DNA from: Peptococcaceae bacterium
Lineage (GTDB): Bacteria; Bacillota; Desulfitobacteriia; Desulfitobacteriales; Syntrophobotulaceae
Reading direction: 5' to 3'
DNA: 36,655 nucleotides
Assembly: GCA_012839895.1 (NCBI GenBank)
Contig: DUML01000026.1
Location: forward strand, 1-36,655
In this document: positions 4,432 to 36,451 of the stretch, piece after piece
How positions within the stretch are numbered: position 1 is the first letter of the stretch
How the letters are laid out: each line of letters starts with the position of its first letter
Made by a program: the position numbers and the translations under genes
Notes under the pieces: model-generated
Database searches by the model: none
What the model was told of the DNA's origin: nothing
The model's input: only the letters and a program-made list of their open reading frames with translations

Positions 4432-4823
4432 GCGAAGTCAACCGGATGATCGCGGAGACAAGCACCGAAAGGTCGTCTCTGAGGAAAGTCCGAGCTCCAC
4501 AGGGCAGGGTGCCGGGTAATACCCGGTGGGGGTGACCCCAAGGAAAGTGCAACAGAGATATACCGCCGATAGCGGAAGTCGGTCTTTCTTAAGGACAGGT
4601 TTCCGAGTAGGCAAGGGTGGAAAGGCGAGGTAAGAGCTCACCGGCAGTCAGGTAACTGGCTGGCCCTGCAAACCCCACCTGGAGCAAGACCAAATAGAGG
4701 AACGATAGAGTGGCCCGCTCTGTTCCCGGGTAAGGTCGCTAGAGGCTGCCGGTAACGGTAGTCCCAGATAGATGATCATCACTTCGGAAGAAGTACAGAA
4801 CTCGGCTTACAGGTTGACTTCGC
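4432..4823 (+). ncRNA. rnpB: RNase P RNA (catalytic subunit, bacterial class A type)
   Basis: The 392-nt RNA is the catalytic component of ribonuclease P, which removes 5' leaders from tRNA precursors. The ends form the P1 helix: GCGAAGTCAACC (4432-4443) pairs perfectly with GGTTGACTTCGC (4812-4823). Conserved segments follow in order: GAGGAAAGTCCGAGCTCC with CAGGGCAGGGTGCCGG near 4480-4520, AAAGTGCAACAGAGA near 4544, CCCTGCAAACCCCACC near 4663, and near the 3' end the block containing AGATAGATGATCATC and CAGAACTCGGCTTACAGG. The layout with the CCCTGCAAACCCCACC region resembles the ancestral A type rather than Bacillus B type, though that subtype call is less certain. Transcription starts almost exactly at the mature 5' end, and a 15-bp terminator lies 37 bases downstream. 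Confidence 0.97.
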
Positions 4824-4860
4824 TTTTTTATTAACTTAGCTTAGAATTTTGGTGACATTG

Positions 4861-16017: not shown

Positions 16018-16412
16018 AGCAATCCCCTTTACCTTTTCCGTTCTAAAGTTAGCTACCAGTTGTTTTTGTATATTACTACAGTATAATCCTATTTTGCTTT
16101 GAAGAAAAGATTTTCGGCTTGAGAATTTGTTGCTTACCATATTATTTATAAGCAAAAGGCATTATTAAAGTACCCATTTCCCGAGGATAATATTGGGATT
16201 AAAGTTTAAAATTATTATTTAGAGCAAATACTAACATATCATGCCCTAACCTATCTTAAAACCCTATGTTTTGGCCATCAGGGAGCAATACCCAAGGGGT
16301 TAATCTTTAAAAGGGTTTAATCTTTAAGGAGATGCGAAGTTTAAGGTAAACAAAGTTTTCGTTTATCGTGTTGTCGGTAATACTTGATAAATCTGCAGAA
16401 AAGGGTTTGGAT
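16018..16412. other. Divergent intergenic region between pyc and germination operon 1
   Basis: It holds a -10-like TATACT for pyc (minus strand, 16080-16085). On the germination side there is a direct repeat of TTAATCTTTAA (16300-16310 and 16317-16327, period 17). I found no convincing sigma-G promoter for the germination operon and no reading frame of note. Confidence 0.4.
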
Positions 16413-18272: not shown

Positions 18273-18356
18273 AGGTTATCATAAGGGTTATTAAAGGATT
18301 ATTTTAATTGTAAAAAACTCTCTGATAAAAAGCGATAAAAAGCTACCAATGAGGCG

Positions 18357-19508
18357 GTGGTTAGGATAATCAAGGAAGGTAAATTTGGTTTCCGGGAAGC
18401 TTTTGCTTTGCTCACAATTATGGAAATAACTAAAATTTTCTACACCAGTCCCCATGTAATTATTAAAGAACTGGGGACAGCGGCTTGGTACGCGACTTTA
18501 ATATCTTGTCTGACCAGCTTGCTTTTTTTCGGTCTTGTGTATCTTCTCCTGAAAAGGTTTCCGGGAAACGATCTTTATCAAGTTTTTGAAGCTGCCACCG
18601 GTCCCAAACTTGGGAAAATATTAATTCTAATTTTTGGCGTTTACTTTTTATACTATGCTGGAGTTAATATGGGGGAATTCACTATTATCCTAAAGGTCTA
18701 TAGTAAGCGCCTTACTCCTACGGAAATTCTTACGGTAGCTTTTCTCTTCGTATTAATAGCACAGGCTTATGTGGGACTGGAAGGTATAGCGAGAACAGCT
18801 TATGTATTTTTTTTCTTCATAATGGGTGGCCTGCTGCTCATTATTCTCTTGGCAATTCCCGCTTATGAGCTGGATTATTTAAAACCTTGGCTGGGGTACG
18901 GCCTGGATAAAACAATTCTCATTGGTATTCTCCGCTCTTCAGCCTATGATGAGATTATTGTCCTGGCGATTATCATTAACTCTATCCATGGCTTGAAGAA
19001 CTTTAAAAAAGTAGGGATAACGTGTTTAATATTTACCGGCTTGACTTTCAGCATTTGCCTGGCCTGTATCTTGGCAGCCTTTCAGTATACTGTGGCCAGT
19101 GAACACCTTTCAGGAATGTTTCAGTTATCGAGAATTATTTACTATTCTCGCTTTTTCCAGAGGGTGGAAGCCATTTTTCTCTTCATTTGGGTTTTTGCTT
19201 CTCTGATAACAGTCTCGCTGGCTTTTTATATGGCTTTAAGCTCGTACTGCCGAGCTTTTAAAATTAATAATCATAGGCCTCTTTTACTGCCATTTGCTTT
19301 CTTGGCTTTTACAGTGGCTTCTTGGCCTGATAATGTTGCCGAAGTTTTAGAGATTCATGTTAAACTAATTCGCCAGTACAGTTTTTTAATACTTTACTTC
19401 TTACCCCTTTTAGTTTTGGCTTGGTCTTTAATCACTGGGAAGAAAGGTGGTAAAGCCAGTGGCGAAAACCAAAATGCAAAACTTGAAAATGCCGGTCAAG
19501 GAAATTAA
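18357..19508 (+). CDS. GerB-family germinant receptor subunit B (spore germination permease), operon 1
   Basis: A 383-residue, ten-span membrane protein of the GerAB/amino-acid-permease-like (APC) superfamily, thought to bind the germinant in the spore inner membrane. The N-terminal KEGKFGFREAFALLTIMEITKIFYTSP is typical for the family. The GTG at 18357 gives the expected N terminus, but GAGG is only two bases from it, so the start is uncertain. The C-terminal tail is hydrophilic and overlaps the start of the GerC-type gene by 62 bases, indicating coupled expression. It shares an operon with the A subunit 84 bases upstream. Confidence 0.9.
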   Translation: MVRIIKEGKFGFREAFALLTIMEITKIFYTSPHVIIKELGTAAWYATLISCLTSLLFFGLVYLLLKRFPGNDLYQVFEAATGPKLGKILILIFGVYFLYYAGVNMGEFTIILKVYSKRLTPTEILTVAFLFVLIAQAYVGLEGIARTAYVFFFFIMGGLLLIILLAIPAYELDYLKPWLGYGLDKTILIGILRSSAYDEIIVLAIIINSIHGLKNFKKVGITCLIFTGLTFSICLACILAAFQYTVASEHLSGMFQLSRIIYYSRFFQRVEAIFLFIWVFASLITVSLAFYMALSSYCRAFKINNHRPLLLPFAFLAFTVASWPDNVAEVLEIHVKLIRQYSFLILYFLPLLVLAWSLITGKKGGKASGENQNAKLENAGQGN

Positions 19509-20793
19509 GGTTTTAGCTTATGTTTTATTGCTTGTTTTCCTGGCTCTTTTTTTGGCAGGCTGTTATGATGCCAAGGAAATTGACCAGGAAGTGTATGCTT
19601 TAGTAATCGGGGTGGATAAGGGAGTTAATAATGCCATCAGAATAACTTTTCAAGTTCCTACTTATAAAGATGGGGGACAGGGGGGAATGGGAGGCGGCGG
19701 AGGAGATGGTGACAACGGCACGGAAACCGGAGAATTAGACGGGACGGTAGTAGCCACGGTGGAAGCGCCTTCCTTGATTGAAGCTATAAATATCCTTAAT
19801 GCCACTTCTAATAGAATGATATCCCTTTCCCATGCCAAGATGCTGGTCTTTTCCGAAGAATATGCCCGGGAAGGAGTTGGCAGGTATATAGAGCCTTTAG
19901 CCAGGTTCCGGGAAGTCCGGGAGTTAATGAGAGTAGTGGTCTGCAGGGGGAAAGCAGAAGATTTTATTAAAGAAAACAAACCGGTTATTAGCCAAAATAT
20001 TGCCAAGGATATTGAGTTGTCATACTTGCAGTCTCAGAATACAGGTTATTTTCGGGATGTGTTTTTTACGGAATTCTATATTGACCTTTTAAGCCCTTAT
20101 GGCCAGCCTACAGCGATTTATGCGGGGGTGAATGAATTTGACCAAATGTTAGACTCAGAACCAGGTCTGTCAGCACCTCCAAAAACTTACTTGGATATTA
20201 AGCCTGGACTTATACCTCGGAAAGGCGGAAATAAAAAGGACTTGTTTGGGACTGCCGTTTTTGACGGTGATCGGATGGTTGGAAGCTTAAATCCGGAAGA
20301 AACCAGGTTTTTCCTGATGAGTATAGGAGAATTTGAACGCAGTTACTTTACTTTGGAGGACCAAAACAAACCTGGCTATATTTATGTTTTGGAAGTGACA
20401 GCAGTGTCCAAACCGCGGATTAAAGCTCGGATTGCCGACGGAGTGCCAGTCATTGACCTTTCGCTGGAACTCGATGCCGATCTGGCTTCGATTCAAAGCA
20501 GAATTAATTATGAAAAATCAGATCTTATTGAGGGCTTTGAGGCATATCTGGAAAGTTATTTTCAAAAAGGGATTAAGAATACTATAGAGAAAACCCAAAA
20601 GGAATTCGGGACGGATATCTTTCAATTTGGCAAGAAAATTGCCGGGAACTTTCGGACTATTCAGGAGTTTGAGGAATATAACTGGCTAAAGCATTATCCG
20701 GAAGCCGAGATTAATGTAAACGTCAAAGTAAATGTACGGCGTTCCGGCTACTTCTATGAAACTCATCATATTTTTTCAACCAAATTAGAATAA
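19447..20793 (+). CDS. GerC-family germinant receptor lipoprotein, operon 1
   Basis: A Ger(x)C subunit, a lipoprotein on the outer face of the spore inner membrane required for receptor function. The signal ends in the lipobox LAGC, with lipidated Cys at residue 39 if translation starts at the GTG at 19447 (AAGAAAG just upstream); later ATGs at 19474 or 19489 would also keep the lipobox. After YDAKEIDQEVYALVIGVDKG, the family opening, there is an unusual glycine-rich insertion at 76-91. The C-terminal domain ends with the family-typical stretch HYPEAEINVNVKVNVRRSG. The overlap with the B subunit supports a three-gene operon, A-B-C. Confidence 0.92.
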   Translation: MVKPVAKTKMQNLKMPVKEIKVLAYVLLLVFLALFLAGCYDAKEIDQEVYALVIGVDKGVNNAIRITFQVPTYKDGGQGGMGGGGGDGDNGTETGELDGTVVATVEAPSLIEAINILNATSNRMISLSHAKMLVFSEEYAREGVGRYIEPLARFREVRELMRVVVCRGKAEDFIKENKPVISQNIAKDIELSYLQSQNTGYFRDVFFTEFYIDLLSPYGQPTAIYAGVNEFDQMLDSEPGLSAPPKTYLDIKPGLIPRKGGNKKDLFGTAVFDGDRMVGSLNPEETRFFLMSIGEFERSYFTLEDQNKPGYIYVLEVTAVSKPRIKARIADGVPVIDLSLELDADLASIQSRINYEKSDLIEGFEAYLESYFQKGIKNTIEKTQKEFGTDIFQFGKKIAGNFRTIQEFEEYNWLKHYPEAEINVNVKVNVRRSGYFYETHHIFSTKLE

Positions 20794-20838
20794 CTTGCCT
20801 TAAATATGCCATATAGATTTGTCATTAAAATTTGTCAT

Positions 20839-20958
20839 CCTGAGCGTAAGCGAAGGATCTTGGGCAGCGAAGGCTTGTTCTGAGCGAAGTAAAGACCTAT
20901 CCTGAACGAAGCGAAAGAACTTTAGCATTAAAGTTTCTGAACGAAGTAGAGAAAGAAG
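20839..20958 (+). repeat. Cluster of degenerate GTCATCCTGAGCG-type repeats
   Basis: Four imperfect copies of a CTGAgCGAAGcgAAaGa-type unit lie at about 20839-20860, 20879-20898, 20901-20921 and 20937-20958. The first copy is preceded by TTTGTCATC, giving the widespread short-repeat form TGTCATcCTGAGCGnAAGCGAAGGATCT. A related copy in the opposite orientation is at 23868-23897. The origin is probably a small non-coding repeat element; no transposase is present. Confidence 0.6.
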
Positions 20959-20968
20959 GAAAGAGGCT

Positions 20969-21133
20969 TTGAAAATTTTTAGTATGCTAGTTGCTTTAGT
21001 CGGAAGTTATTACACTTTTACTTTCGGCCGGAGTTTATGGGTGGATGACAAGAATAAACTTGGTGGGTTCGGAGCTGTTTTAGCTGCGTTTGCCGGTGTT
21101 GCCGGGCTGTTTTTGCTCCTTTTTTACAAATAG
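20969..21133 (+). CDS. Small two-span membrane protein, unknown
   Basis: A 54-residue protein starting at TTG (20969), with AGGAAAGAGG ending two bases before it. There are two hydrophobic segments: KIFSMLVALVGSYYTFTFG (2-20) and a C-terminal span rich in Gly/Ala (~34-52). A short polar loop, WVDDKNKLGG, lies between them, and the protein ends FYK. No family is recognised. It lies between germination operon 1 and the SASP gene on the same strand, so expression in the forespore is plausible but not shown. Confidence 0.55.
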   Translation: MKIFSMLVALVGSYYTFTFGRSLWVDDKNKLGGFGAVLAAFAGVAGLFLLLFYK

Positions 21134-21222
21134 TGAATTGCCAACCAATAATTTGTCAGTATTTATTTTCAAAAAGAGTAAAGATTACTACTAATAAGAA
21201 ATTTTTAAAGAGGTGAAACAAA

Positions 21223-21399
21223 ATGGCTAAATTCAGGCCCCTTGCACCGGGACAAACAGCAAGCAGTGTTGAGCAACAAATGGGAATTCAGTTTTTTGAC
21301 GGGGATGCCGGAGATATTACTTCCCGTGAAGCGGGGAATATGGTTAAAAGAATGGTAAAGTATGCGGAAGAGCAACTTCAAAAAGGCCAAAAAATGTAG
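21223..21399 (+). CDS. Divergent alpha/beta-type small acid-soluble spore protein (SASP)
   Basis: A 58-residue protein whose second half, DGDAGDITSREAGNMVKRMVKYAEEQL, matches the C-terminal signature of alpha/beta SASPs (G-D-x-T-S-R-x-x-G...-x-x-K-R-M-V). Those proteins coat DNA in the dormant spore. The first half is shorter than usual. PLAPGQTASSVEQQMGIQF seems to replace the longer helix that carries the germination-protease site, and no clear protease site is visible. AAGAGGTG precedes the ATG. It sits with coat genes between two germination operons, in keeping with forespore expression. It could be a specialised SASP or a related regulatory protein. Confidence 0.7.
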   Translation: MAKFRPLAPGQTASSVEQQMGIQFFDGDAGDITSREAGNMVKRMVKYAEEQLQKGQKM

Positions 21400-21429
21400 T
21401 CCAAATAGATAGGCGTAAGGAGTTGAATT

Positions 21430-21645
21430 TTGTTGACCCAAACGGAAATAGCTCCCCATGAAGCATTTGAACTACATGAGCTTTTGCAGCTCAAAAACAG
21501 CTGTGCCCTGAAAGCTTCCGGTTTGACCAATGATATCTCTGATCCAAAACTTAGGGTAATTCTGGAAACCGATCTTAGGAATTCCCAAGAACAGATAAAG
21601 GAACTTCAAGAATTTATCCGGCAAGCGGTAAATCTTGCAGAGTAG
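21430..21645 (+). CDS. CotF-like spore coat protein, N-terminal-type half
   Basis: A 71-residue helical protein that starts at TTG (21430), with AAGGAG ending eight bases before. The segment HEAFELHELLQLKNSCALKA with the following SDPKLRVILETDLRNS resembles the N-terminal CotF-like helical unit of spore coat proteins. The next gene has the full Coat_F domain. In Bacillus the CotF protein is made as one chain and cleaved; here the two parts are separate genes 26 bases apart. Its location is presumably the spore coat. Confidence 0.7.
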   Translation: MLTQTEIAPHEAFELHELLQLKNSCALKASGLTNDISDPKLRVILETDLRNSQEQIKELQEFIRQAVNLAE

Positions 21646-21671
21646 GAAAGAGAGTTAGGGAGACTGATGAA

Positions 21672-22031
21672 ATGGTTAATATTATTCAGGATGTGGCAGG
21701 TGTAGACTTTATGACCGAAAAAGACATCGTGCTGGAAATGCTCCTGACTTCCAAAAATGTTTTAAACCGCTATTGTACTGCAATTGGCGAGTCGACTACT
21801 CCTCAGGTAAGGGAAACCTTAAAGAAGCATTTAAATCAAATAATAGATATTCATGGACAGATCATGGACTTTGCCGTGGAAAAGGGTTATTATAAGCCCT
21901 TTAATCCACCGGAACAATTCAAAGATGACTTGAAAAAAGCTTATGTGGCCTTGGATCTTGAGCCCTGGAAGTTACAGCCAAGCGAGGAGTTTTTCGGTCC
22001 TAAGAGGGATATACCTATTGTAAGGTCATAA
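21672..22031 (+). CDS. CotF-family spore coat protein
   Basis: A 119-residue protein with a complete Coat_F-type domain at ~14-75. The run MTEKDIVLEMLLTSKNVLNR, then RETLKKHLNQIIDIHGQIMDF and EKGYY, is the classic ferritin-like helical pattern with an ending Gly-Tyr-Tyr. GGGAG (21657-21662) is placed for the ATG at 21672. The C-terminal 40 residues are extended and Pro-rich. It is the last gene of the SASP/coat group; a terminator follows after 73 bases. Confidence 0.85.
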   Translation: MVNIIQDVAGVDFMTEKDIVLEMLLTSKNVLNRYCTAIGESTTPQVRETLKKHLNQIIDIHGQIMDFAVEKGYYKPFNPPEQFKDDLKKAYVALDLEPWKLQPSEEFFGPKRDIPIVRS

Positions 22032-22104
22032 AGCGAACAAAATACAATCATAACGTAGGGCCAATCCTAAGAAAAGTATGTCTCCGGTTCAGAGGCATTT
22101 AGTT

Positions 22105-22142
22105 AACCAAGCAGACCCCAAGACAGGTCTGTTTGGTTTTTT
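22105..22142 (+). terminator. Terminator of the SASP/coat gene group
   Basis: AACCAAGCAGACC (22105-22117) pairs with GGTCTGTTTGGTT (22126-22138) over 13 positions with one G-U wobble and an 8-nt loop. Six T's follow. Confidence 0.88.
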
Positions 22143-22175
22143 CATGGGAATAAAAAAAGAAGGCTGCGGGAGAAT

Positions 22176-22205
22176 AAATATTTAGAAGCAAAATATTGCA
22201 TAATA
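22176..22205 (+). promoter_or_regulatory. Candidate forespore sigma-G-type promoter for operon 2
   Basis: CATAATA at 22199-22205 matches the sigma-G/F -10 pattern CATWHTA exactly. AAATA (22176-22180), 18 bases upstream, matches four of five positions of the -35 form GHATR. Transcription would start around 22212, so translation must begin at the ATG at 22229. Forespore control fits known germination operons. Confidence 0.45.
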
Positions 22206-22228
22206 GGCAAGATAATGAAGAGGTAACT

Positions 22229-23836
22229 ATGTTTTCTTGGCTAAAAAGAAAATATAAGTTCTTAAAAACTATGGCTCAAGCTAACCAACAAAAGAATGAG
22301 CAACCCCAAGCGGAAAAAATCCCTCAATCCTTTCCGGAGTTAAGAGCCAAACTTCAGCAGGTTTTTGCGGAATGCGGTGATTTCAAAACCAGAGAAATAT
22401 TGGTTGGCGATGAACATTACAGATTAATTATTGCTTGGATGGATAATCTCGCCAGTAATCAAATTTTACATGAAAGCTTAATAAGACCTTTATTAGAGCC
22501 ACAAGCTTTTTGTCAATTCTTAGAAGATAAAGAAGAGGACTTGGCGGTATTCCTTAAAAATAATGTCTTGATTGCAGCTGAGCTGAAAGAAGTAACCGAC
22601 TTTAACCAGACAGTGGAATTTATACTTTGCGGCGAAAGTGTCATTTATATTGAAGGAAGCAGTACCGCTTTAGCTGCGGCGACCAGAGGCTGGGAGACCC
22701 GGACTGTAACTGAGCCGGAGACAGAGACTGTAGTGCGCGGTCCGCGCGAAGGGTTTGTGGAAGACCTGGCGGTAAATTGCGCTTTGCTTCGCCGCAAAAT
22801 TAAAAACCCCAATCTAAAGATGGAAATGATGAAGATTGGCCGCCAGACTAAAACAACAGTTTGTGTTTGCTATTTGAAAGGAATTGCCGATCCTGCCTTA
22901 GTACAGGAAGCCAAAACCAGGCTACAGAAAATAAACATCGATGCCGTCCTGGAGTCTGGTTACTTGGAAGAGATGATCGAAGATGCGCCTCTTTCATTTT
23001 TCCCGACTGTTGGCAACAGTGAGAAACCTGATGTTGTAGCGGCCAAAATCCTGGAAGGGCGAGTAGGCATTTTTTGTGACGGAACGCCTTTTGTCCTGAC
23101 TGTTCCCTATTTATTTTTAGAGACCCTGCAGGCCAGCGAAGATTATTATACCAGGGCAATCAGTTCCAGCCTGCTGCGCACTGTAAGAATAATCTGCTTC
23201 TATGTCTCAATCCTTTTACCCGGTCTTTATGTGGCTTTTTTAAATTTTCACCAATCTGTTCTTCCGTTAAATTTTTTGCTCACAATCGCTGCAAGCAGAG
23301 AAAGTATTCCTTTTTCTCCTTTTACTGAAGCCTTGTTTATGGGCATAACTTTTGAAATCTTGCAGGAAGCCGGGATAAGAATGCCTAGACCGATTGGGCA
23401 ATCCGTGAGTATTGTAGGAGCGCTGGTTATCGGAGAAGCCTCAGTCCGGGCCGGCTTGGTCAGCGATCCTATGGTCATAATTACAGCTCTTACTGCTATC
23501 AGCACTTTTATCCTTCCCCCTTTGCAGCGGGTTTTGCCGTTTTTCCGCTTTGGCTTTACCATTGCTGCCAATATTCTGGGTTTATTAGGAATTTTTTTCT
23601 TCCTTATCGCTTTGGTAATCCACTTGTGTACACTCCGTTCTTTTGGGATTCCCTATTTAGCGCCTTTAGCCCCTTTGTCTCTCTCGGATATTAAAGATAC
23701 CTTTGTCAGGTTTCCTCTATGGACTATGCTAACCAGACCTAGAGACTTAACTTGGCCGGAAACCGGGCAGGCGGCTAAATACAGGGCGGGAGCGGAACAA
23801 TTGCTGTCTAAAATGCGAAAAAAAGAAGACCGCTGA
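22229..23836 (+). CDS. GerA-family germinant receptor subunit A, operon 2
   Basis: A 535-residue Ger(x)A subunit. The frame extends to a TTG at 22196, but GAAGAGG (22217-22223) and the sigma-G-like promoter argue for 22229. The N-terminal disordered tail is short compared with the operon 1 paralogue. Family signatures are RGPREGFVEDLAVNCALLRRK (about residues 169-189) and VLESGYLEEMIEDAPLSFFPT. The C-terminal half has several membrane spans, including LFMGITFEILQEAGIRMPRP and LRSFGIPYLAPLAPLS at the end. It heads an A-C-D-B operon. The paralogue lies 6 kb upstream, so the cell can build at least two receptors from this locus. Confidence 0.93.
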   Translation: MFSWLKRKYKFLKTMAQANQQKNEQPQAEKIPQSFPELRAKLQQVFAECGDFKTREILVGDEHYRLIIAWMDNLASNQILHESLIRPLLEPQAFCQFLEDKEEDLAVFLKNNVLIAAELKEVTDFNQTVEFILCGESVIYIEGSSTALAAATRGWETRTVTEPETETVVRGPREGFVEDLAVNCALLRRKIKNPNLKMEMMKIGRQTKTTVCVCYLKGIADPALVQEAKTRLQKINIDAVLESGYLEEMIEDAPLSFFPTVGNSEKPDVVAAKILEGRVGIFCDGTPFVLTVPYLFLETLQASEDYYTRAISSSLLRTVRIICFYVSILLPGLYVAFLNFHQSVLPLNFLLTIAASRESIPFSPFTEALFMGITFEILQEAGIRMPRPIGQSVSIVGALVIGEASVRAGLVSDPMVIITALTAISTFILPPLQRVLPFFRFGFTIAANILGLLGIFFFLIALVIHLCTLRSFGIPYLAPLAPLSLSDIKDTFVRFPLWTMLTRPRDLTWPETGQAAKYRAGAEQLLSKMRKKEDR

Positions 23837-23867
23837 GACTTATCCTTCGTAATGGTCTATGCAAGTA

Positions 23868-23969
23868 TCTTTCGGGCAAAGTCCTTAGGATGACATGTTT
23901 TTCGTGAGTCATCCCGTGAAGGCTTTCAAATGCCTTCACGCGCAGTGAAAGATCTTAAGCCATCGGGAT
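23868..23969 (-). repeat. Related intergenic repeat and nested hairpins
   Basis: TATCTTTCGGGCAAAG and AGGATGACA (~23868-23897) correspond to the complement of the repeat at 20839-20860, in opposite orientation and degenerate. GGATGAC (23888-23894) pairs with GTCATCC (23908-23914). GTGAAGGC (23916-23923) pairs with GCCTTCAC (23932-23939). ATCCCG (23911-23916) pairs with CGGGAT (23964-23969). The structures lie between the A and C genes of operon 2 and may shape the mRNA or reflect insertion of a small element. Confidence 0.5.
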
Positions 23970-23991
23970 AACAATAAGGAGCAAAGGTAGT

Positions 23992-25206
23992 ATGATGTTG
24001 GACTTAGGTAAAAACAGTTTAAAAAATATTTCTCTGAGAAGTGCTTCTTTAATAATTTTGGTATTTTTCTCTCTTACAGGCTGTTGGGACAACAAAGATG
24101 TGACGGAAATTAATCTTATTACTGCTGTCGGGGTTGATAAAACAACAGATGGGAGGGTAGAGGTTACTTTTGAGATTCCAAGGCCAAGCCTGACTAGGAC
24201 CGGCCAGGCCGGGGCGGGCGGTGGAGAAAACAGCCGCGAAAAAGCTGTCAGTTTGGTATCTTCTAAAGGTGATACAGCTTTTATTGCCGTCCGCAGCATG
24301 GTGGAAAAACTGGCGAAAGATATTTTCCCCTCTAAAATGGAGCTATTGTTAATTGGTGAAGATTTGGCCCGGGCCGGATTACAGGAAGTCTTTGATTTAA
24401 TGGAGAGAGATCCGGAATCCAACATGACCGCTAAGGTTCTGTTGGTGAAAGGGGCGCCGGTCAAGCAAGTTATGGAAGCGGAAAGCGAACAGGAGAAAAT
24501 ACCTTCCCTGCACCTTGTTAAATCTATTACCGTTAATCAAGACACTTTTGGCAGCAGTAAGGAAGCTAGGGTTATTGATATTTTAAGAGAAGTAGCACTG
24601 CCGGGAAAAGATCCCCTCATCCCGGTGGTAGAGATTTTGGAGGAAAAGGAGAATTTAAAAGTTAAAAATATTTTGGTGTCGGGCAGTGCCGCTTTTAGGG
24701 GAGATAAATTGGTCGGTTATCTTACAGCAACTGAGACCAGGGGTTGGCTCCTTGCTGAGAATAAAATTAAAGCCAGTGTTTATTCCTTGCCCAGCCCTAA
24801 CGATGAAACAAAGAATATCTCTTTTGAAATGTATTGTGAAAATGGCCAAAAAAAAGTTGAGTTCATTGAAGGCAAGCCTAAACTTGTAATCAAAATCAAA
24901 GCAACCGGCGATATTGGGGAAAGCCAGGAGCCAACGGATCTCACCCAACCGCAGATGCTCAAAAAACTGGAAAATAAGATCAAACAAATTATTACAGAAG
25001 AGGTAAACAGTGCTTTAAATTCAGCTCAAAAATATCATAGCGACATTTTTGGTTTTGGAGATATTATTCATCGAAAAAACCCTCAGGAGTGGCAGAAAAT
25101 AAAGGATAATTGGCCTGAAATCTTTAGTAAAGCCCCAACGGAGATAACAGTTGAAGTCAAGCTGAAAAGATCAGGTTATACCCGCAAAGGTGTAGAACCA
25201 CTGTAA
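23992..25206 (+). CDS. GerC-family germinant receptor lipoprotein, operon 2
   Basis: A 404-residue Ger(x)C lipoprotein. The signal peptide has hydrophobic core SASLIILVFFSL and lipobox LTGC, lipidated Cys31 (30 if the second ATG at 23995 is used). AAGGAG (23976-23981) and AAAGG lie ahead of the starts. The family opening WDNKDVTEINLITAVGVDK follows at once. The C terminus ends with KAPTEITVEVKLKRSGYTRK. A short Gly-rich stretch, QAGAGGGEN, occupies the position where the operon 1 paralogue has its longer glycine run. Here C follows A directly, with B last, unlike operon 1. Confidence 0.92.
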   Translation: MMLDLGKNSLKNISLRSASLIILVFFSLTGCWDNKDVTEINLITAVGVDKTTDGRVEVTFEIPRPSLTRTGQAGAGGGENSREKAVSLVSSKGDTAFIAVRSMVEKLAKDIFPSKMELLLIGEDLARAGLQEVFDLMERDPESNMTAKVLLVKGAPVKQVMEAESEQEKIPSLHLVKSITVNQDTFGSSKEARVIDILREVALPGKDPLIPVVEILEEKENLKVKNILVSGSAAFRGDKLVGYLTATETRGWLLAENKIKASVYSLPSPNDETKNISFEMYCENGQKKVEFIEGKPKLVIKIKATGDIGESQEPTDLTQPQMLKKLENKIKQIITEEVNSALNSAQKYHSDIFGFGDIIHRKNPQEWQKIKDNWPEIFSKAPTEITVEVKLKRSGYTRKGVEPL

Positions 25207-25251
25207 ATTTAGCAGTCTGTTTTAACTGTCAAGGGTTGTGAGGTATGGTAA

Positions 25252-25485
25252 GTGGCCTTAAATATCATCTTGCTCGTAATAATTGCAATCATTATGGTTC
25301 TCTTGGATTTACCGGGATTGTTAAAAATTGAAAAGAAAAATAAAATTAAGGTTTTAATCAGCTATTTTCTCCTGCTTTTAACAGGCTTTACTTTAGGATT
25401 ATTGTTAATCCTGGAAAGGGAACCGGTTAGTCCGACTGTGATAATCGAAAGAATGCTGAACTTAATTTTAGGGATTGGCTTATGA
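25252..25485 (+). CDS. Small GerD-subunit-like membrane protein
   Basis: A 77-residue protein with two membrane spans (about 2-22 and 33-53) joined by a basic loop, KIEKKNKIKV. The start is GTG with TGTGAGGT about eight bases before. The stop overlaps the start of the next gene by four bases (ATGA), so expression is coupled. Small two-span D subunits modulate some Bacillus receptors (GerKD, GerUD types). Position in the operon and topology suggest the same role here, but sequence similarity alone is too low to be sure. Confidence 0.65.
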   Translation: MALNIILLVIIAIIMVLLDLPGLLKIEKKNKIKVLISYFLLLLTGFTLGLLLILEREPVSPTVIIERMLNLILGIGL

Positions 25486-26549
25486 TGACAAATGTAAAAA
25501 TTTCCGGCTATCAATTGGCTTTATTAATAATGGGTTTTCTTTTTGGGAGTACCGCGGTTTTAAACCCGACTGCAATGGCCGGCCAGGATGCCTGGTTGGC
25601 CTATATCTTAGCCTGGGTGGGGGGGTTTATGCTAATCTGGCTTTATGTCCGAATCGCGTTAATTAATCCTTCCCTGACCCTGGTGGAAATCCTGAAAGTG
25701 ACTTTTGGCAAGTACCTTGGTACTGTTATCGCTTTACTGTATATCTGGTATTTTCTGCATCTCGCGGCACTCGTTCTCCGGGATTTTGGCGAACACATGA
25801 ATGTTACGGTTTTCTATCGAACTCCTATGACTTTTATCATCAGTTGTTTTGCCCTGCTTATTGCCTATTGCCTGCGGAAGGGGCTGGAAGTGACCGGGAG
25901 AGCGGCTGAAATCCTGATGCCATATCTATTCATCTTCGTAATAATTATTTTCTTTTTGCTCATTCCTGAATATGATACGAATAACTTATTTCCTTTCTTA
26001 GAAAAGGGTCTAACCCCTGTAATTCAAGTTGCTTTTGGAGTTTTAACTTTTCCTTTTGGGGAAACGGTCACTTTCTTAATGATTTTTCCGGCACTTTATT
26101 CGCCGGGTCAGTTAAAAAAAGTTTCTTTTGCAGCCTTTGGGGTAATGGGGTTTATTATTTTGGGTATTATTGTCCGCGACCTTTTGAGTTTGGGACCTGA
26201 TCTTTTGACTAGACTAGTCTTCCCGCCAAGCCTCAGCACGGAGTTAACTCCGGAGCTCCAATTGGAGCCTTTGATCTCTGTCAACTTTTTGCTCGGAGGG
26301 TGGGTTAAAATTACAGTTTGTTTGTATGCTGCTCTTGTAGGAATTGCCCAGCTTTTAGGCCTTAATGATTATAAGCATTTGGTTTTACCCTTAGTTCTCT
26401 TAGCTGTAGGCTTGGCAATGTGGCTGTATGAAGATCTTTTTAAGATGATGGATTGGACGGCTAATGTGTATCCTTATTATGCTTTCCCTTTACAGTTTGG
26501 GATTCCACTCCTTATCTTGCTTGTTGCCAAAATTAGAAAGCTAGCGTAA
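25482..26549 (+). CDS. GerB-family germinant receptor subunit B (spore germination permease), operon 2
   Basis: A 355-residue, ten-span protein of the GerAB family. The N terminus, KISGYQLALLIMGFLFGSTAVLNPTAMAGQDAWLA, is characteristic, including the conserved sequence before the AGQDAW turn. Later sections are FPFGETVTFLMIFPAL and the ending YPYYAFPLQFGIPLLILLVAKIRKLA. The start codon overlaps the stop of the small D-like gene. It is the last subunit of the A-C-D-B operon. Sequence differences from the operon 1 B subunit suggest a different germinant. Confidence 0.92.
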   Translation: MMTNVKISGYQLALLIMGFLFGSTAVLNPTAMAGQDAWLAYILAWVGGFMLIWLYVRIALINPSLTLVEILKVTFGKYLGTVIALLYIWYFLHLAALVLRDFGEHMNVTVFYRTPMTFIISCFALLIAYCLRKGLEVTGRAAEILMPYLFIFVIIIFFLLIPEYDTNNLFPFLEKGLTPVIQVAFGVLTFPFGETVTFLMIFPALYSPGQLKKVSFAAFGVMGFIILGIIVRDLLSLGPDLLTRLVFPPSLSTELTPELQLEPLISVNFLLGGWVKITVCLYAALVGIAQLLGLNDYKHLVLPLVLLAVGLAMWLYEDLFKMMDWTANVYPYYAFPLQFGIPLLILLVAKIRKLA

Positions 26550-29817: not shown

Positions 29818-30756
29818 TTATTGTTTTTGACCGGTTTCTTGAGCTGCTTCCTGGAGCTCTGAAATATTGGCCAGGGTTAATTCACCTTTAATGGTCACCA
29901 GAGCCTTATTCTGCTCTTTAATGACTTTTTCCAATTCATAGATAGAAAGGTCCAACTTACTAATACTATCCTCCTGTTCTTCGGGGATAGTATTTTTCAT
30001 AATTGCCCAGCTTCTCTTTATTTCTTCCATATCTTTGGCAGCTAAGCCCCAATCCTCCATTTTGGAAGCCAGAACGGTGTTGCGAGTATAATACACCATA
30101 TTTTTTAGTTCCGGTGAGATTTTGGTCTTATATAGGGAATAAAGCGCAGGCAGTTGGGAGTAGAGGCGGTTGGCTGCCAGAAGGGTCTGTTCAGTTTTCT
30201 TTTCTGCAATTATTTTTGTAAGGTCATTAAGCGCCGTGCTAAATCCGTCGATTACTTCTTTTGTCGCTCCCTTTTTGGTTGCTTGGGGCATAAAGTTGTT
30301 CCAGCCGGAATGTAAATCTTTTATTTCCAGGTTAATTTGTTGCCAGGGATCTCCTTTGGTAGCTTGCCCTTTCTGAACTTGTTGGGAGCTTGCATTATCT
30401 TGACTCTGGTTTTGCTGGGTGCTTGCTTTCTCTTTGCCTTGACTGCCTTCTTCAGGGTTTTCTTGGCCTTGATTGCTGGCATGAGGTTCTTCTTGGTCCT
30501 GCTTAGTTTGTTGCGAAGGCTTTTCCTGAGGCTCACCGACAGGGCCACCGAGAATCTGAAAGATGCTTTCGATCTTAGTCTCAATTTCCTCCAGCTCTTT
30601 GGGGATTTTTTCGCCTTGCTTTTCTTGGCTTGATTCTTGGCCTGAATCCTTCTTAAACAGCCCGCAACCTAAAAGTCCGACAGCAAGAAGAAAGAGCAAG
30701 CTAGCAATTAGGATAATTTGGAACAAATACTTCCGGTTAATAGTAGTATTTTGCAT
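29818..30756 (-). CDS. Lipoprotein of unknown function with a Gln/Glu-rich linker
   Basis: A 312-residue exported protein. The signal peptide ends in lipobox LLGC with lipidated Cys31. Residues ~37-140 are hydrophilic, low-complexity and rich in Gln, Glu, Ser and Lys, probably disordered. The remainder (about 150-305) is a helical domain with repeated Lys/Glu/Leu patterns, suggesting a helix bundle. No enzymatic motif or family is recognised. A spacer-plus-bundle architecture fits a surface-exposed protein that spans the peptidoglycan. Other lipoproteins in the window are germination subunits; a link to spores is possible but only by location. Confidence 0.75.
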   Translation of the reverse strand: MQNTTINRKYLFQIILIASLLFLLAVGLLGCGLFKKDSGQESSQEKQGEKIPKELEEIETKIESIFQILGGPVGEPQEKPSQQTKQDQEEPHASNQGQENPEEGSQGKEKASTQQNQSQDNASSQQVQKGQATKGDPWQQINLEIKDLHSGWNNFMPQATKKGATKEVIDGFSTALNDLTKIIAEKKTEQTLLAANRLYSQLPALYSLYKTKISPELKNMVYYTRNTVLASKMEDWGLAAKDMEEIKRSWAIMKNTIPEEQEDSISKLDLSIYELEKVIKEQNKALVTIKGELTLANISELQEAAQETGQKQ

Positions 30757-31044: not shown

Positions 31045-31093
31045 TTGTCGAAAAACTGGTTTTTATTTGATTAATAATTATTTAGATTCGACA
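31045..31093. promoter_or_regulatory. Two inverted Spo0A-box-like sites before the sensor kinase
   Basis: TGTCGAA (31046-31052, in the context TTGTCGAAA) and its exact complement TTCGACA (31087-31093) face each other 34 bases apart. They lie 78 bases before the kinase start at 31171. TGTCGAA is the core of the Spo0A binding box. This suggests control of the kinase and possibly the whole agr locus by the sporulation master regulator. Confidence 0.5.
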
Positions 31094-31170
31094 GATTAAA
31101 TCTTTCTTTTTGGTAAAAACTTCATTAAAATTAATGTTATAAGAAAAAATATTAATTGGTGGAATGGAAA

Positions 31171-32982
31171 TTGGTAAACAACAAATCAATTATTCAATCC
31201 ACATTTATAAAGATTACTGTCTCAATTTTTGCTATTCTGTTAATACTTTATTTTTTTTTGGCTAGGATTTATTGGAATAATGAGGTCTTAACCAGAGAAC
31301 TGGAGCTTTTAACAGTCGCTTCTAAAATGGAAACAGTAATCGAGAACAATTATCAAAGCATTTTGGGTATTAAAACAAATAAAAACCTAAATGATTCTCA
31401 AAAGTATGAGCAAATAAATAATTTATTTGAAGTTTTTTTTGACAAGCTCTCCCAGGATTATAAAAATATCCAGCTCGGCTATTATGACCTAGAATTAAAC
31501 CAAATGGTGTTTTACCCCCGGGCAGAAAATGATAATTTAATTTCTGACCTCGGGCTGAAGACAAATAACGGCTTATTATTGGAAGAGGCAACTGTTCCCA
31601 GGTTTATTTCCGATGTGGAAGTCTTTCGTTGGGATGGGAAGGGAATTATTGCCGCAGTTGTCCCGGTTTGTTACAAGGGTGAAATCGTTGGCCAGACTTG
31701 GGCAATGTTAAAAGCAGAAGAAATATATCATCAGTCTTATCTTAGCTACAGTAAGTATTTTATTCCCAGTCTAGTAATTATAATCCTGGTTCTCTTTCTA
31801 ATTGATAAGAATTTAGTTAAGATTAAATACGCCTTGGATGATTTTACGGCAGCTATTATTAATGATAGACCTGCCAATCTAGATAAGTTTAATTTACCGG
31901 AGCTTTGGCCGGTATATGAAAAAATTCATAATTACCTTGCAAATTTAAAACTTTTAAATGAACGTCTTGAGGAATCAAATACCAAATTAATTACTATTAT
32001 GCAAGGGATTGCCGACGGCTTCTTTTCTTTGGACAGGCAGTGGTGTTTTACCTTTGTAAATGAAGAGGCTAAAAGGCTGTTAAAAAAAGAACAGAATGAC
32101 TTACTAGGGAAATGCGTTTGGGATGAACTCTTAAATTTTTTGCCGGAAAAAACTGTTCATAACCTCCGTCAGGCAATGGAACAGAATATTACTCGGCATT
32201 GGGAAGAAAAGCTCTTCCCCGAAGCAAGGTGTTATGAATTTTATGCTTATCCATTTGTTCAAGGGTTAAATGTTTTCTTCCGGGATATTACTGAATTGAA
32301 GCAGAAAGAACAAGAACTCTCCAGGCTGGAAAGACTCAATTTAATTGGTCAAATGGCGGCTGGAATCAGCCATGAGGTCCGCAATCCCTTAACTACGGTT
32401 AGAGGATTCCTACAAATGCTGGAAGAGAAAACAAACTGTTCCCGTAATAAAGAATACATGGAAATAATGATTTCTGAGATTGACCGGGCCAATGGGATAA
32501 TAACTGACTTCTTATCCCTGGCTAAGTCCAATTCCGACAGCACCAAAATTGAGGATATCAACGAAATAATTTCCCGTTTATACCCAATGCTTCAGGCAGA
32601 TGCCTTTAATGACAGTAAAGAAATAGTTATTAACTTAGGCCAAGTTCCTCTTTTGGAATTGAATCGCTCTGAGATTAAGCAGCTAATTTTAAATCTGGTG
32701 CACAACGGCCTGGAAGAAACACCGGTGGGGGGCAAAGTTGAAATTAGTACATATTTAGAAGATGATAGGGTAGTATTAGCCATTAGAGATGAAGGAAAGG
32801 GGATACCGGAAGATATTCAGGAAAAAATTGGTACACCCTTTTTTACTACTAAAGAAACAGGGACTGGATTAGGTTTGGCTATTTCTATAGGGATTGCCCG
32901 GCGTCATCAAGCTCATTTTAGATTTCAAACAGGCCCAAACGGGACGACCTTTTACATTAGCTTTCCAATTCCAGGGAAATAG
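31171..32982 (+). CDS. Orphan PAS-domain sensor histidine kinase (sporulation-kinase-like)
   Basis: A 603-residue membrane kinase. From the TTG at 31171 (GGTGG, 31158-31162, fits this start better than the TTG at 31156), a span lies at ~12-32. An extracytoplasmic sensor region of ~160 residues of Cache type follows, then a second span at ~197-213. A PAS domain is at ~275-375. The HisKA region contains AAGISHEVRNPLTTVRGFLQ with phospho-acceptor H401, and the ATPase has NLVHNGLEE, DEGKGI and TGTGLGLAI. No response regulator gene is adjacent. The HEVRNPLT-type phosphoacceptor segment and layout resemble kinases that feed Spo0A. Spo0A-box-like sites upstream and the AgrBD locus downstream make a peptide-influenced sporulation kinase attractive, but that is inferred. 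Confidence 0.9.
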   Translation: MVNNKSIIQSTFIKITVSIFAILLILYFFLARIYWNNEVLTRELELLTVASKMETVIENNYQSILGIKTNKNLNDSQKYEQINNLFEVFFDKLSQDYKNIQLGYYDLELNQMVFYPRAENDNLISDLGLKTNNGLLLEEATVPRFISDVEVFRWDGKGIIAAVVPVCYKGEIVGQTWAMLKAEEIYHQSYLSYSKYFIPSLVIIILVLFLIDKNLVKIKYALDDFTAAIINDRPANLDKFNLPELWPVYEKIHNYLANLKLLNERLEESNTKLITIMQGIADGFFSLDRQWCFTFVNEEAKRLLKKEQNDLLGKCVWDELLNFLPEKTVHNLRQAMEQNITRHWEEKLFPEARCYEFYAYPFVQGLNVFFRDITELKQKEQELSRLERLNLIGQMAAGISHEVRNPLTTVRGFLQMLEEKTNCSRNKEYMEIMISEIDRANGIITDFLSLAKSNSDSTKIEDINEIISRLYPMLQADAFNDSKEIVINLGQVPLLELNRSEIKQLILNLVHNGLEETPVGGKVEISTYLEDDRVVLAIRDEGKGIPEDIQEKIGTPFFTTKETGTGLGLAISIGIARRHQAHFRFQTGPNGTTFYISFPIPGK

Positions 32983-33118: not shown

Positions 33119-33574
33119 ATGAAAATACCATTTTTAGCATTTGTCTTACAAGGTATCCCGGAAAGTATTGCCATGGTTACGCTGGCTTTTGTTATTGCCC
33201 GTATTCCTCTTCAGTGGAAAAAAATAATAGCCATTGGTCTAATAATGGCCACAACGTCTTATATTTTAAGGCTTTTTCCAATCACCTTCGGCATTCATAC
33301 TGTTTTGTTAATAGTCTTGCTCTTTATTTTACTTATCCGTGTAGAAAGAACTAACATTAATGCGTTATTGATCTCCAGCCTGCTAAGCCATTTAGTTGTT
33401 ATTATTGCTGAGACAATATGTTTAGGATTATTAATGTCACTTCTTCATATTTCTTTTGAAGTTCTTTATAACAATGTCGCTCTAAGAATTTTAATGACTT
33501 TACCCCAGGTTATATTGATCTTTATTATTGCTTATATTACTTTAAAAATTCGTTCTAAGAAAGGAAAATTTTAA
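33119..33574 (+). CDS. Kinase-less membrane sensor-like protein, copy 1
   Basis: A 151-residue protein with four to five membrane spans and almost no soluble part. An ideal GGAGGAA (33109-33115) places the start at the ATG at 33119. With the next gene it shares QGIPE at the N terminus, then the motifs FGIHT, SFEVL and RIL-T-PQV near the end. The arrangement resembles the membrane sensing domain of clostridial AgrC/GHKL-type kinases, but the kinase part is absent. Its position just before AgrB and AgrD suggests detection, transport or processing of the peptide. The function is inferred from context and topology. Confidence 0.7.
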   Translation: MKIPFLAFVLQGIPESIAMVTLAFVIARIPLQWKKIIAIGLIMATTSYILRLFPITFGIHTVLLIVLLFILLIRVERTNINALLISSLLSHLVVIIAETICLGLLMSLLHISFEVLYNNVALRILMTLPQVILIFIIAYITLKIRSKKGKF

Positions 33575-33626: not shown

Positions 33627-34094
33627 ATGGTGATCCCATTTCCAGCTTTAATATTCCAAGGGATTCCTGAACAGATAGCTCTTGTGACTTTAGCTTTTGT
33701 TCTGGCTAAGCTTAAGTTAGAATGGCCAAAAATCATTCTTTTTGCTATGGTCTTAACTTTTACTGCTTATTTTATTAGGTATTTTTCGCCAACCTTTGGT
33801 ATTCATACTATTGTTCTTATGGGTATGTTATTTATCTTCTTTGTCGAAAGATATAATGTTCCGGTAATAAAGTCCCTTAAGATATCGGTATCAGTTGCAG
33901 TTATTTTAATTATCACCGAGTCAATTCTCTTAAACTCATTAATGAAGCTTTTCAGTCTATCTTTTGAGGTACTTAATGAGAACATAATATATAGAATCTT
34001 AATTACTTGGCCACAAGTTCTAATTTTATTTTTATTGTCTTTTATTATCATTATTTGGCGAAGGAGAAAAGAAAAATCAAATGAAACTTTCTGA
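33627..34094 (+). CDS. Kinase-less membrane sensor-like protein, copy 2
   Basis: A 155-residue paralogue of the preceding gene: the opening is FPALIFQGIPEQIALVTLAFV, there is a central SPTFGIHT, and the C-terminal SFEVLNENIIYRILITWPQV matches copy 1. It has four to five membrane spans, with a basic tail (WRRRKEKSNETF). AAGGAG (33615-33620) precedes the ATG. It overlaps the AgrB start by 14 bases, so translation is coupled to agrB. Two tandem copies may form a heteromeric receptor, or one may be specialised. No database evidence was available. Confidence 0.7.
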   Translation: MVIPFPALIFQGIPEQIALVTLAFVLAKLKLEWPKIILFAMVLTFTAYFIRYFSPTFGIHTIVLMGMLFIFFVERYNVPVIKSLKISVSVAVILIITESILLNSLMKLFSLSFEVLNENIIYRILITWPQVLILFLLSFIIIIWRRRKEKSNETF

Positions 34095-34665
34095 AATAAG
34101 TGAGCGTATTTCTGAGAGTTTAACACGAGAATTAGACTACAGCGAAGACAAAAAAGAAATTGTTACATATGGCATAGAGACAGCTCTTTTGACTGTCTTA
34201 GGATTCCTGGCAATTATTGCTTTAGCCTTCTTATTTAACGCTGTTGTACCGGCAATTATCGCCGCCTTGTTTGGTGGGGTATTACGGCGCTTGTCCGGAG
34301 GCGCTCATTTTGACACACCTTTGAAATGTTTGACTTTTGGTGCGGTTGTTTATGCCTTGATTGGGGTTGCGGCAAAAGAATTGCTCAAGTATGAATTATA
34401 CAGCACAACGCTGGCCGTAGTGATTTTATTAATAGCCTTGATTGTTATGGTAATCCTTGCCCCGGTAGATTGTGAAGCTAAACCTATTCATTCCCGGGTT
34501 TTAAAAAGAAATTTGAAGATTTCTTCCGTAGCCTTTGTCCTTCTTACCATGGGAATAATTCTTTTTAGCGGTAATACTGTCCTAAATACCAGTGCAGTTT
34601 TGGGAGTATTTTACCAGACTATGACCCTACTGCCGGTATTTAATAATAAAAAAAAGGAGGGTTAA
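34081..34665 (+). CDS. agrB: AgrB-like peptide maturation protease
   Basis: A 194-residue integral membrane cysteine endopeptidase that removes the C-terminal tail of AgrD and cyclises the peptide. The catalytic dyad is present: H76 in SGGAHFDTP and C83 in LKC, the same spacing as H77 and C84 of S. aureus AgrB. It has about five membrane spans after a charged N-terminal amphipathic region. It overlaps the upstream gene by 14 bases, and agrD begins two bases after its stop, so the set is a single operon. Confidence 0.95.
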   Translation: MKLSEISERISESLTRELDYSEDKKEIVTYGIETALLTVLGFLAIIALAFLFNAVVPAIIAALFGGVLRRLSGGAHFDTPLKCLTFGAVVYALIGVAAKELLKYELYSTTLAVVILLIALIVMVILAPVDCEAKPIHSRVLKRNLKISSVAFVLLTMGIILFSGNTVLNTSAVLGVFYQTMTLLPVFNNKKKEG

Positions 34666-34667
34666 GG

Positions 34668-34790
34668 ATGAAAAAAATAGTTTACACCCTGATTACATCC
34701 GCAATTGTACTTCTTGCTACAGCTAGTTCCGTATTTGCCTGCATTTACTGGGCTTATCAACCCAAAGCACCTAAGTCTTTGCAAAAATAA
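34668..34790 (+). CDS. agrD: AgrD-like cyclic lactone autoinducer precursor
   Basis: A 40-residue precursor. AAGGAGG (34654-34660) sits seven bases before the ATG. Residues 1-24 form a basic and hydrophobic leader ending SSVFA. They are followed by the signal core CIYWA at 25-29 and a tail YQPKAPKSLQK, matching the C-x-x-x-x-YQPK-x-PKSL form of clostridial cyclic lactone peptides. By analogy with five-residue rings such as that of C. perfringens, the mature signal would be a thiolactone between Cys25 and Ala29; the exact ring and any exocyclic tail need chemical proof. A strong stem-loop follows two bases after the stop. Confidence 0.93.
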   Translation: MKKIVYTLITSAIVLLATASSVFACIYWAYQPKAPKSLQK

Positions 34791-34834: not shown

Positions 34835-36451
34835 ATGCTGCATGATGACAAACAAAAACAAGAAAAATATATTCTCGCTTCGCAGGTAATCTCCTTTTGT
34901 TTGCTGGCCATGCTTATTTTGGTTGCTGTCAGTTTTAAAGATCAGTTAACGTATGAAATTGGATATTACCATTCCACCCTTATGTTTTTTGTGGTTTTAC
35001 CGCTGATTGTTTTAATAAGGTTATTAAGCATTCATTATAATAATAAACTAATAGACTACAGTGTAAATAGTTTCTTTTATCTGGTTTCGGCTATTTTTTT
35101 AATATATTTAAACAATAATGCTTTTCAAATTTTGCTAATAATGCCGGTTATTAGTATGGCTTTAAAATATGGTACCAAGCATTCTATCTATACGGTATTA
35201 TGCTCTTTGGTTGTTTTATTGTTTGTCAGCGATAAGAGAAATTTTACTTCTATCGACAGTGACCTGATGTACTGTATAGTATTTATACTGGTGGCTTGGC
35301 TTCTCGGGAATATGCGAGAATCAGAAATGGATATTGAAAAAAAACTGGAGAGATTAGCCCATTACGATGGTTTGACAGACCTCCTTAACCACCGGTCTTT
35401 TCAGCGTATCCTGGAATTGGAGCTTCAGAACGCCGAAAAGAACAAGTCCAGTTTAAGCTTAATTATGTTGGATTTAGATTATTTTAAAATATATAATGAC
35501 TCGTTTGGCCATCAAAAAGGGGATTTGGTTTTACGGCAAGTAGCGGGAATTCTAAAAGATGCTACGCCTTCCAATTGTTATTGTGCCAGGTATGGCGGGG
35601 AAGAGTTTGCTTTAATTTTGCCGGGTATATGTATTGAAATGGCTAAAAGGGTAGGAGAGAACATAAGGAGAAAAATTGAAGAGACTGTTTTTCCTGGCAT
35701 GGAGCTTTTGCCCAAAGGCAAGCTTACCATGTCCGTTGGTATTGCTGAGTATCCTACCATGGCCAACAATAAGGAAAAATTAATCCAAAAAGCGGATGAA
35801 GCCTTATATAAGGCCAAATTTGTCAGCAAAAACAAAGTGGAGACATATTATTCAGTTTTTGATGAATTAAGCCTTGGTTTAATGGAAGAGGAAAGGGATA
35901 TTTTTAATTCTATCCGCACCCTGACCATGGTGATTAATGCCAAAGATAAGTATACTTACGGCCATTCTGAAAGGACTATGCAATTAGCCCAAAAACTCGG
36001 TAAAAGAATAGGTCTGGAGCAAGAGAGCCTGAAAGAGCTCATCTATAGCGCTTTGCTGCATGATATCGGCAAAATTGAAGTGGCTAGGGAGATATTGAAC
36101 AAACCGGGTAAGCTTAGCGAAGAAGAATGGGCAGTGCTTAAACAGCATCCTCAGTGGGGAGCAGATATAATCAGGCCGTTAAAATCTTTAAAAGGTATGG
36201 CCGACATTGTCCGCTTCCATCATGAAAATTATGATGGAAGCGGTTATCCGTTAGGCTTAAAAGGAGAGGAAATTCCTCTAGGGGCACGTATTTTAAGAAT
36301 TATTGACAGTTTTGATGCCATGACCACTATCCGCCAGTATAAGGAAGGTATGACAAAAGAGCAAGCTTTAGAAGAACTTAAAAATTTAACCGGGCGGTAT
36401 TATGACCCTAATCTGCTGGCTGAATTCCTAGCAATGATGCAAGAAGTCTAA
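34835..36451 (+). CDS. Membrane-bound GGDEF and HD-GYP protein
   Basis: A 538-residue protein with about six hydrophobic segments (~12-160), a GGDEF domain and a C-terminal HD-GYP domain. GGDEF makes c-di-GMP from GTP: metal site DLDYFKIYND at 213-222 and signature GGEEF at 254-258, an active variant. The usual RxxD inhibitory site before the signature is replaced by a TPSN region, so feedback inhibition is unlikely. HD-GYP degrades c-di-GMP: HD 409-410, HHENYDGSGYP 462-472. Both catalytic sets look intact. The start is supported by GAGAGGG eleven bases before. The position right after AgrBD, with a stem-loop between, suggests that quorum state may influence c-di-GMP level. Confidence 0.93.
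   Translation: MLHDDKQKQEKYILASQVISFCLLAMLILVAVSFKDQLTYEIGYYHSTLMFFVVLPLIVLIRLLSIHYNNKLIDYSVNSFFYLVSAIFLIYLNNNAFQILLIMPVISMALKYGTKHSIYTVLCSLVVLLFVSDKRNFTSIDSDLMYCIVFILVAWLLGNMRESEMDIEKKLERLAHYDGLTDLLNHRSFQRILELELQNAEKNKSSLSLIMLDLDYFKIYNDSFGHQKGDLVLRQVAGILKDATPSNCYCARYGGEEFALILPGICIEMAKRVGENIRRKIEETVFPGMELLPKGKLTMSVGIAEYPTMANNKEKLIQKADEALYKAKFVSKNKVETYYSVFDELSLGLMEEERDIFNSIRTLTMVINAKDKYTYGHSERTMQLAQKLGKRIGLEQESLKELIYSALLHDIGKIEVAREILNKPGKLSEEEWAVLKQHPQWGADIIRPLKSLKGMADIVRFHHENYDGSGYPLGLKGEEIPLGARILRIIDSFDAMTTIRQYKEGMTKEQALEELKNLTGRYYDPNLLAEFLAMMQEV

Follow-up and report, generated by a model that had tools for sequence, protein, structure and literature searches.

The DNA upstream of an orphan histidine kinase gene in a Peptococcaceae bacterium raises the question of whether Spo0A controls one of its own putative kinases together with a quorum locus. 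We analysed a 36,655-nt stretch of this genome (assembly GCA_012839895.1, contig DUML01000026.1), referred to below as the window. The original prediction described two inverted Spo0A-box-like sites, TGTCGAA and TTCGACA with 34 bases between them, in intergenic DNA. Both are present, at 31,046-31,052 on the + strand and at 31,087-31,093 on the - strand (TTCGACA as read on the + strand), the predicted start being one base off, and both match the TGTCGAA core heptamer of the 0A box exactly. They indeed lie between genes. On one side is a divergent ORF for a lipoprotein-like protein (29,818-30,756, - strand, starting at 30,756; N-terminus LLGCGLF), which matched no Pfam family at E 0.001; on the other is the kinase gene (31,171-32,982, + strand). 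The TTG at 31,171, 7 nt past GGTGGA, is the likelier kinase start, and a longer version begins with the TTG at 31,156.

Chance expectation for the heptamer and the pair

TGTCGAA occurs six times in the window against 2.55 expected, and a count of at least six was reached in 4 of 100 shuffles. A background count over the intergenic DNA of the genome had been proposed as a check; the 2.84-Mb genome holds 145 copies in all, and the intergenic share comes from 100 inspected sites, 22 of which are not within any ORF of 60 aa or longer. Other intergenic copies precede ftsE-like, degS-like and pyruvate:ferredoxin oxidoreductase genes, and many neighbours of such sites have no evident link to Spo0A. 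One copy stands 60 bp ahead of the start of a second, KinD-like kinase gene (contig C77, L106:1001-1260), and Spo0A may therefore control at least two of its kinases.

The inverted arrangement did not stand out numerically. With 20-50 bases between the heptamers, the genome has one such pair and also one match to a reversed control pattern. Across 25 genomes of the family, the pattern TGTCGAWN{25,45}TTCGACA gave 38 matches and the control 39, a comparison affected by the control heptamer being about four times commoner than TGTCGAA in the genome under study. Since its counts are no higher than those of the control, the pair by itself is weak evidence, and it was rejected as a stand-alone statistical signal. 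Another inverted box pair is kept in two genomes of genus g8 (G016:C201:27537-27586 and G017:C123:18777-18826), whose spo0A genes lack an exact box.

Conservation of the putative promoter and its probable reading by Spo0A

Conservation in relatives, also proposed as a check, was assessed in the 150 bp upstream of 12 full-length kinase orthologues from the 25 family genomes (this genome included; the partial orthologue of G014 excluded). Exact TTCGACA recurs in 8 of the 12. In four of these (G000, G001, G007 and G008) both boxes of the inverted pair are exact, and in G021 the upstream one reads TGTCGAT, with one mismatch; the start-to-start distance is 41-43 bp in all five. G020 combines TTCGACA with TGCCGAA 49 bp upstream, and in G009 and G010 the upstream box is absent and TTCGACA stands alone. 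Neither box was found within 150 bp upstream of the remaining four orthologues, all of genus g3 (L163-L166). The g3 genomes retain spo0A, and those of their spo0A loci that were tested carry the box. The same four g3 loci retain the kinase-agr unit, and the kinase was not found in one further g3 genome, G006.

A putative -10 hexamer, TAAAAT (31,126-31,131, + strand), lies 32 nt past the downstream box, and TANAAT occurs at 31-32 nt in seven of the eight box-bearing orthologues. When the five pair genomes were aligned on TTCGACA, mean pairwise identity in ten-base bins was 0.24-0.47 upstream, 0.79 at the box and about 0.6-0.8 from there to TANAAT, and then fell to 0.36 and 0.26, which marks a conserved promoter block from box to putative -10 (31,087-31,131, + strand). 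Box and spacing are kept in orthologues of 51-60% protein identity (40% for G020), while the spacer DNA has diverged. The part of the predicted pair that relatives preserve is thus the downstream TTCGACA with its -10, whereas the inverted partner accompanies it in just five of the 12. A motif-free enumeration of heptamers placed TGTCGAA, found in 8 of 12 upstream regions, at the top of those with at least two G/C, and in 500 Markov-resampled sets heptamers with at least three G/C were common to at most 4 of 12; because the orthologue sequences are related, such a null sets too low a bar and k-mer sharing overstates independence. On the sequences compared, it is the recurrence of the heptamer at the equivalent site in orthologues that goes beyond chance.

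The genome encodes two Spo0A proteins with a full Spo0A_C domain (152.9 and 151 bits). At least one spo0A copy is present in 24 of the 25 family genomes, two copies being common. Out of 31 spo0A loci submitted, 30 could be tested, and in 26 of them an exact box lies at most 200 bp upstream; all four misses belong to genus g8. With the same heptamer ahead of so many spo0A genes, Spo0A in these bacteria very probably reads it. Both spo0A genes of this genome carry the box (L133, contig C66, and L134, contig C63), and in the promoter of the second copy TTCGACA stands exactly 12 nt before TATAAT, the arrangement also seen in operons of a second family (see below). For spo0F of the same genome, no 0A box within one mismatch was found in the 300 bp examined. 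For C. difficile, the accessible text of PMC3485338 states that in vitro binding of Spo0A was predicted by a core box located 67-82 bp ahead of a start codon.

Two explanations would detach the sites from regulation of the kinase. The boxes might serve the divergent lipoprotein gene at 29,818-30,756, as they lie in an intergenic region common to both genes. We regard this as very unlikely, for the downstream box is 331 bp from the lipoprotein start as against 63-84 bp from the kinase start (it begins 84 bp before the TTG at 31,171). In addition, G020 retains TTCGACA with a co-directed ORF of different sequence as its upstream neighbour, while genus g3 keeps the divergent lipoprotein (clear in three of four; the ORF start differs in G004) without the box. 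Retention in the one case and loss in the other assign the box to the kinase side. Alternatively, the heptamers could have arisen by chance in an AT-rich spacer and been retained by common ancestry alone. A pair count no higher than that of the control would fit this, as would the expectation of such a heptamer in 0-2% of cases per 150 bp per orthologue, at which single matches are not very rare. The conserved block running from box to -10 between flanks and spacer of near-background identity is hard to reconcile with it, and so are 8 of 12 orthologues against a null maximum of 4; we consider chance most improbable.

The kinase, the phosphorelay and the linked agr genes

The kinase is predicted to consist of a transmembrane (TM) segment, an extracellular alpha/beta domain, a second TM segment and PAS, HisKA and HATPase_c domains. 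The last three (PAS as Pfam PAS_4) score above the Pfam cut-off, and together they are the domain set by which Spo0 sporulation kinases of the KinA-E type are recognized. The gene was rightly called an orphan, as no response regulator gene was found among the neighbouring window ORFs scanned. At positions +7, 8, 11, 12, 14 and 15 from the histidine (His406, numbered from the start at 31,156), the kinase has T, T, G, F, Q and M, which are specificity residues of the Spo0F type. These offsets were derived from the strings published in PMC6136694, and KinB of 3d36 is consistent with them (TAGFQL). Table 1 of PMC6136694, the part of that paper on which the comparison draws, lists TTGFQM for three orphan kinases of Desulfotomaculum acetoxidans and, for the Kin proteins of Bacillus, strings like TAGFQL. 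The sporulation kinase KinB is also among the closest solved relatives by sequence, and the NCBIfam KinD equivalog NF053867 gave 163.2 bits, under its curated cut-off of 775. The structural model has a mean pLDDT of 75 and a pTM of 0.37, and its top whole-length Foldseek match is the WalK model 9a5d (TM 0.48). Naming the extracellular domain from its structure was considered and dropped, the VIA-align matches mostly spanning residues 387-608 and barely covering it.

Both intermediates of the phosphorelay are encoded in the genome. The spo0F gene, whose product has Spo0F as its best PDB match, adjoins a gene that we take, from its sequence, to be that of fructose-bisphosphate aldolase, and spo0B adjoins a gene that is presumably obg, likewise named from sequence. 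Judged by its specificity residues and domains, the kinase is a good candidate Spo0F kinase. The idea of a Spo0A-regulated kinase that feeds Spo0A is supported by these marks of a Spo0 kinase, but the feeding would be by way of Spo0F and Spo0B and not direct.

The predicted quorum locus was recognized downstream of the kinase. All further genes of the run are on the + strand: two membrane proteins of an unnamed family with five TM segments (5-TM protein 1, 33,119-33,574, model pLDDT 91, placed by the family alignment; 5-TM protein 2, 33,627-34,094, a paralogue with 44% identity to it), AgrB (34,081-34,665; PF04647, 132.9 bits), the 40-residue autoinducer peptide precursor AgrD (34,668-34,790; TIGR04223, 33.4 bits against a cut-off of 19) and, as the last gene, a GGDEF and HD-GYP-type protein (34,835-36,451; Pfam GGDEF and HD_5). 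AgrB and AgrD, two components of the Agr quorum system, both score above the cut-off. As to AgrC and AgrA, the neighbouring kinase is of the HisKA type, and no LytTR regulator was found among the window ORFs scanned. About 125 bp separate the kinase gene from the one after it, which tells somewhat against co-transcription; a scan gave no + strand terminator, a result compatible with co-transcription though no proof of it.

This linkage extends beyond one family. In the first, all 11 loci whose downstream DNA could be read have AgrD after the kinase (in G010 the contig ends). In the second, the genes run 5-TM protein(s), AgrB, AgrD, kinase, and AgrD was found in 19 of 21 loci, so that kinase, agrB-agrD and the 5-TM family are neighbours in both despite opposite gene order. 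Over the order as a whole, the kinase (E <=1e-95) was found in 45 of 73 genomes, and the 5-TM family in 42 of these 45 as against 6 of the other 28. A class-level sample has the family in 48 of 82 genomes, next to agrB in the loci inspected. The 5-TM proteins matched nothing in Pfam or NCBIfam, and a search for a known fold found no Foldseek match at E <0.001 (best E 3.0), by which a new fold is not implied; they are a possible peptide-export or sensing partner.

A box directly before the kinase was sought in the second family and discarded, there being no exact copy in any of 22 loci. The box precedes the operon instead: in 8 of 20 operons the first gene is preceded by a -10-like hexamer with an exact TTCGACA 12 nt in front of it, a box with one or two mismatches lies 11-12 nt from the -10 in 5 more, and the other 7 have no box before the first gene. 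The box-bearing operons all belong to one genus, g15, and are therefore not independent cases. The box thus tracks the kinase-agr module, standing before the whole operon where the kinase comes last.

Models of regulation and known systems

From the boxes, their conservation and -10 spacing, the domains and specificity residues of the kinase, a genome that encodes Spo0F, Spo0B and two copies of Spo0A, and the conserved agrBD linkage, we judge it probable that both sites are true 0A boxes and belong to a promoter under Spo0A control, which would serve the orphan Spo0-type kinase and, by read-through, agrB-agrD. Relative to the expected transcription start, Spo0A~P would bind TTCGACA centred at about -48 and, in promoters that have it, the inverted TGTCGAA at about -89, roughly on the same face of the helix. 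It would most likely activate transcription of the kinase and agr genes from a promoter without a good -35, the kinase and agr genes being presumably co-transcribed. Phosphate would then pass from the kinase to Spo0F, Spo0B and Spo0A, raising Spo0A~P. The predicted feedback loop between cell density and sporulation draws partial support from the conserved sites, the Spo0-type kinase and agrBD, but is weakened by the one genus (4 of 12 orthologues) in which the box is missing.

Two other readings accept the boxes and change what follows from them. Spo0A boxes occur at activated and repressed promoters alike, and Spo0A might repress here, in a negative loop in which high Spo0A~P shuts off both kinase and signal; the 0A boxes of B. 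subtilis spo0A itself are mainly repressive, according to the portion of PMC12090719 available. Neither box overlaps the -10, however, and with the downstream box centred near -48 and no good -35, activation would be the more usual outcome, which makes repression an unlikely alternative. Somewhat more doubtful is that Spo0A binds the sites while the kinase signals to a regulator other than the Spo0 relay. No partner gene lies beside the kinase and many HisKA kinases have the same domain set, as this reading would have it, yet the specificity residues agree with those of Spo0F-directed kinases and KinB is among the closest solved relatives.

Beyond the proposed Spo0A-activated promoter, we tentatively suggest a wider scheme in which the kinase, either by itself or together with the 5-TM proteins, might be the membrane receptor for the peptide made from AgrD and feed the Spo0 phosphorelay. 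In these anaerobes, agrBD without AgrC/AgrA would then report cell density directly to Spo0A, and the 0A boxes would close the loop. This proposal draws on the linkage of AgrD and kinase in 11 of 11 and 19 of 21 loci of opposite gene order; that the AgrD peptide is the signal of the kinase is a hypothesis with this linkage as its support.

Action of Spo0A on genes of its own relay is already known in B. subtilis, where, in the text of PMC12090719 available, it extends to kinC, spo0F and spo0A, and 0A boxes are described as regulating spo0F, sin and kinC. The locus resembles these cases in that a gene expected to raise or tune Spo0A phosphorylation has 0A boxes at its promoter. It differs in the kinase concerned, in having one conserved box that may or may not be joined by an inverted partner some four helical turns further upstream, and in the peptide-signal operon behind the kinase. 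In C. difficile and other clostridia, agrBD without agrCA promotes early sporulation, and the AgrD1 receptor and the route to Spo0A are described as unknown (accessible parts of PMC10602386 and PMC11210211). The present locus likewise has agrBD without agrCA. In the C. difficile RgaSR-agrB1D1 system, as far as those parts describe it, AgrC-like RgaS and RgaR switch on the peptide operon, whereas here agrBD adjoins a HisKA orphan kinase of Spo0F-type specificity. The kinase also resembles D. acetoxidans Dtox_1918 and other Peptococcaceae orphan kinases with PAS, TTGFQM or TTGFQL, and Spo0F plus Spo0B; unlike them, as they are presented in the available text of PMC6136694, it is linked to agrBD and has 0A boxes.

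In the open-access literature searched, mostly titles and the beginnings of abstracts, we found neither agrBD joined to sporulation kinases or Spo0A in this group nor 0A boxes, a Spo0F-type orphan kinase, agrBD and the 5-TM family as one unit. Such a unit of peptide genes, kinase and boxes would offer a concrete, testable route from Agr-type peptides to Spo0A, with a candidate peptide receptor in relatives of Dichloromethanomonas and in the wider order searched. Were the minimal reading alone true, the locus would still be a conserved target of Spo0A, and probably a feedback loop, in bacteria other than Bacillus.

Other parts of the window were annotated as well. A class A RNase P RNA (Rfam RF00010), the sole match of the Rfam scan, lies at 4,434-4,825, and a single protein encoded at 5,055-6,971 combines CWB2 cell-wall-binding repeats with a BslA (biofilm surface layer) domain and an amidase domain. 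Upstream of the kinase locus, at 16,368-26,549, are spore germination genes of the GerA type (two GerA, two GerAC and a spore permease) and a gene for a CotF-domain protein, which make this part of the window rich in spore genes.
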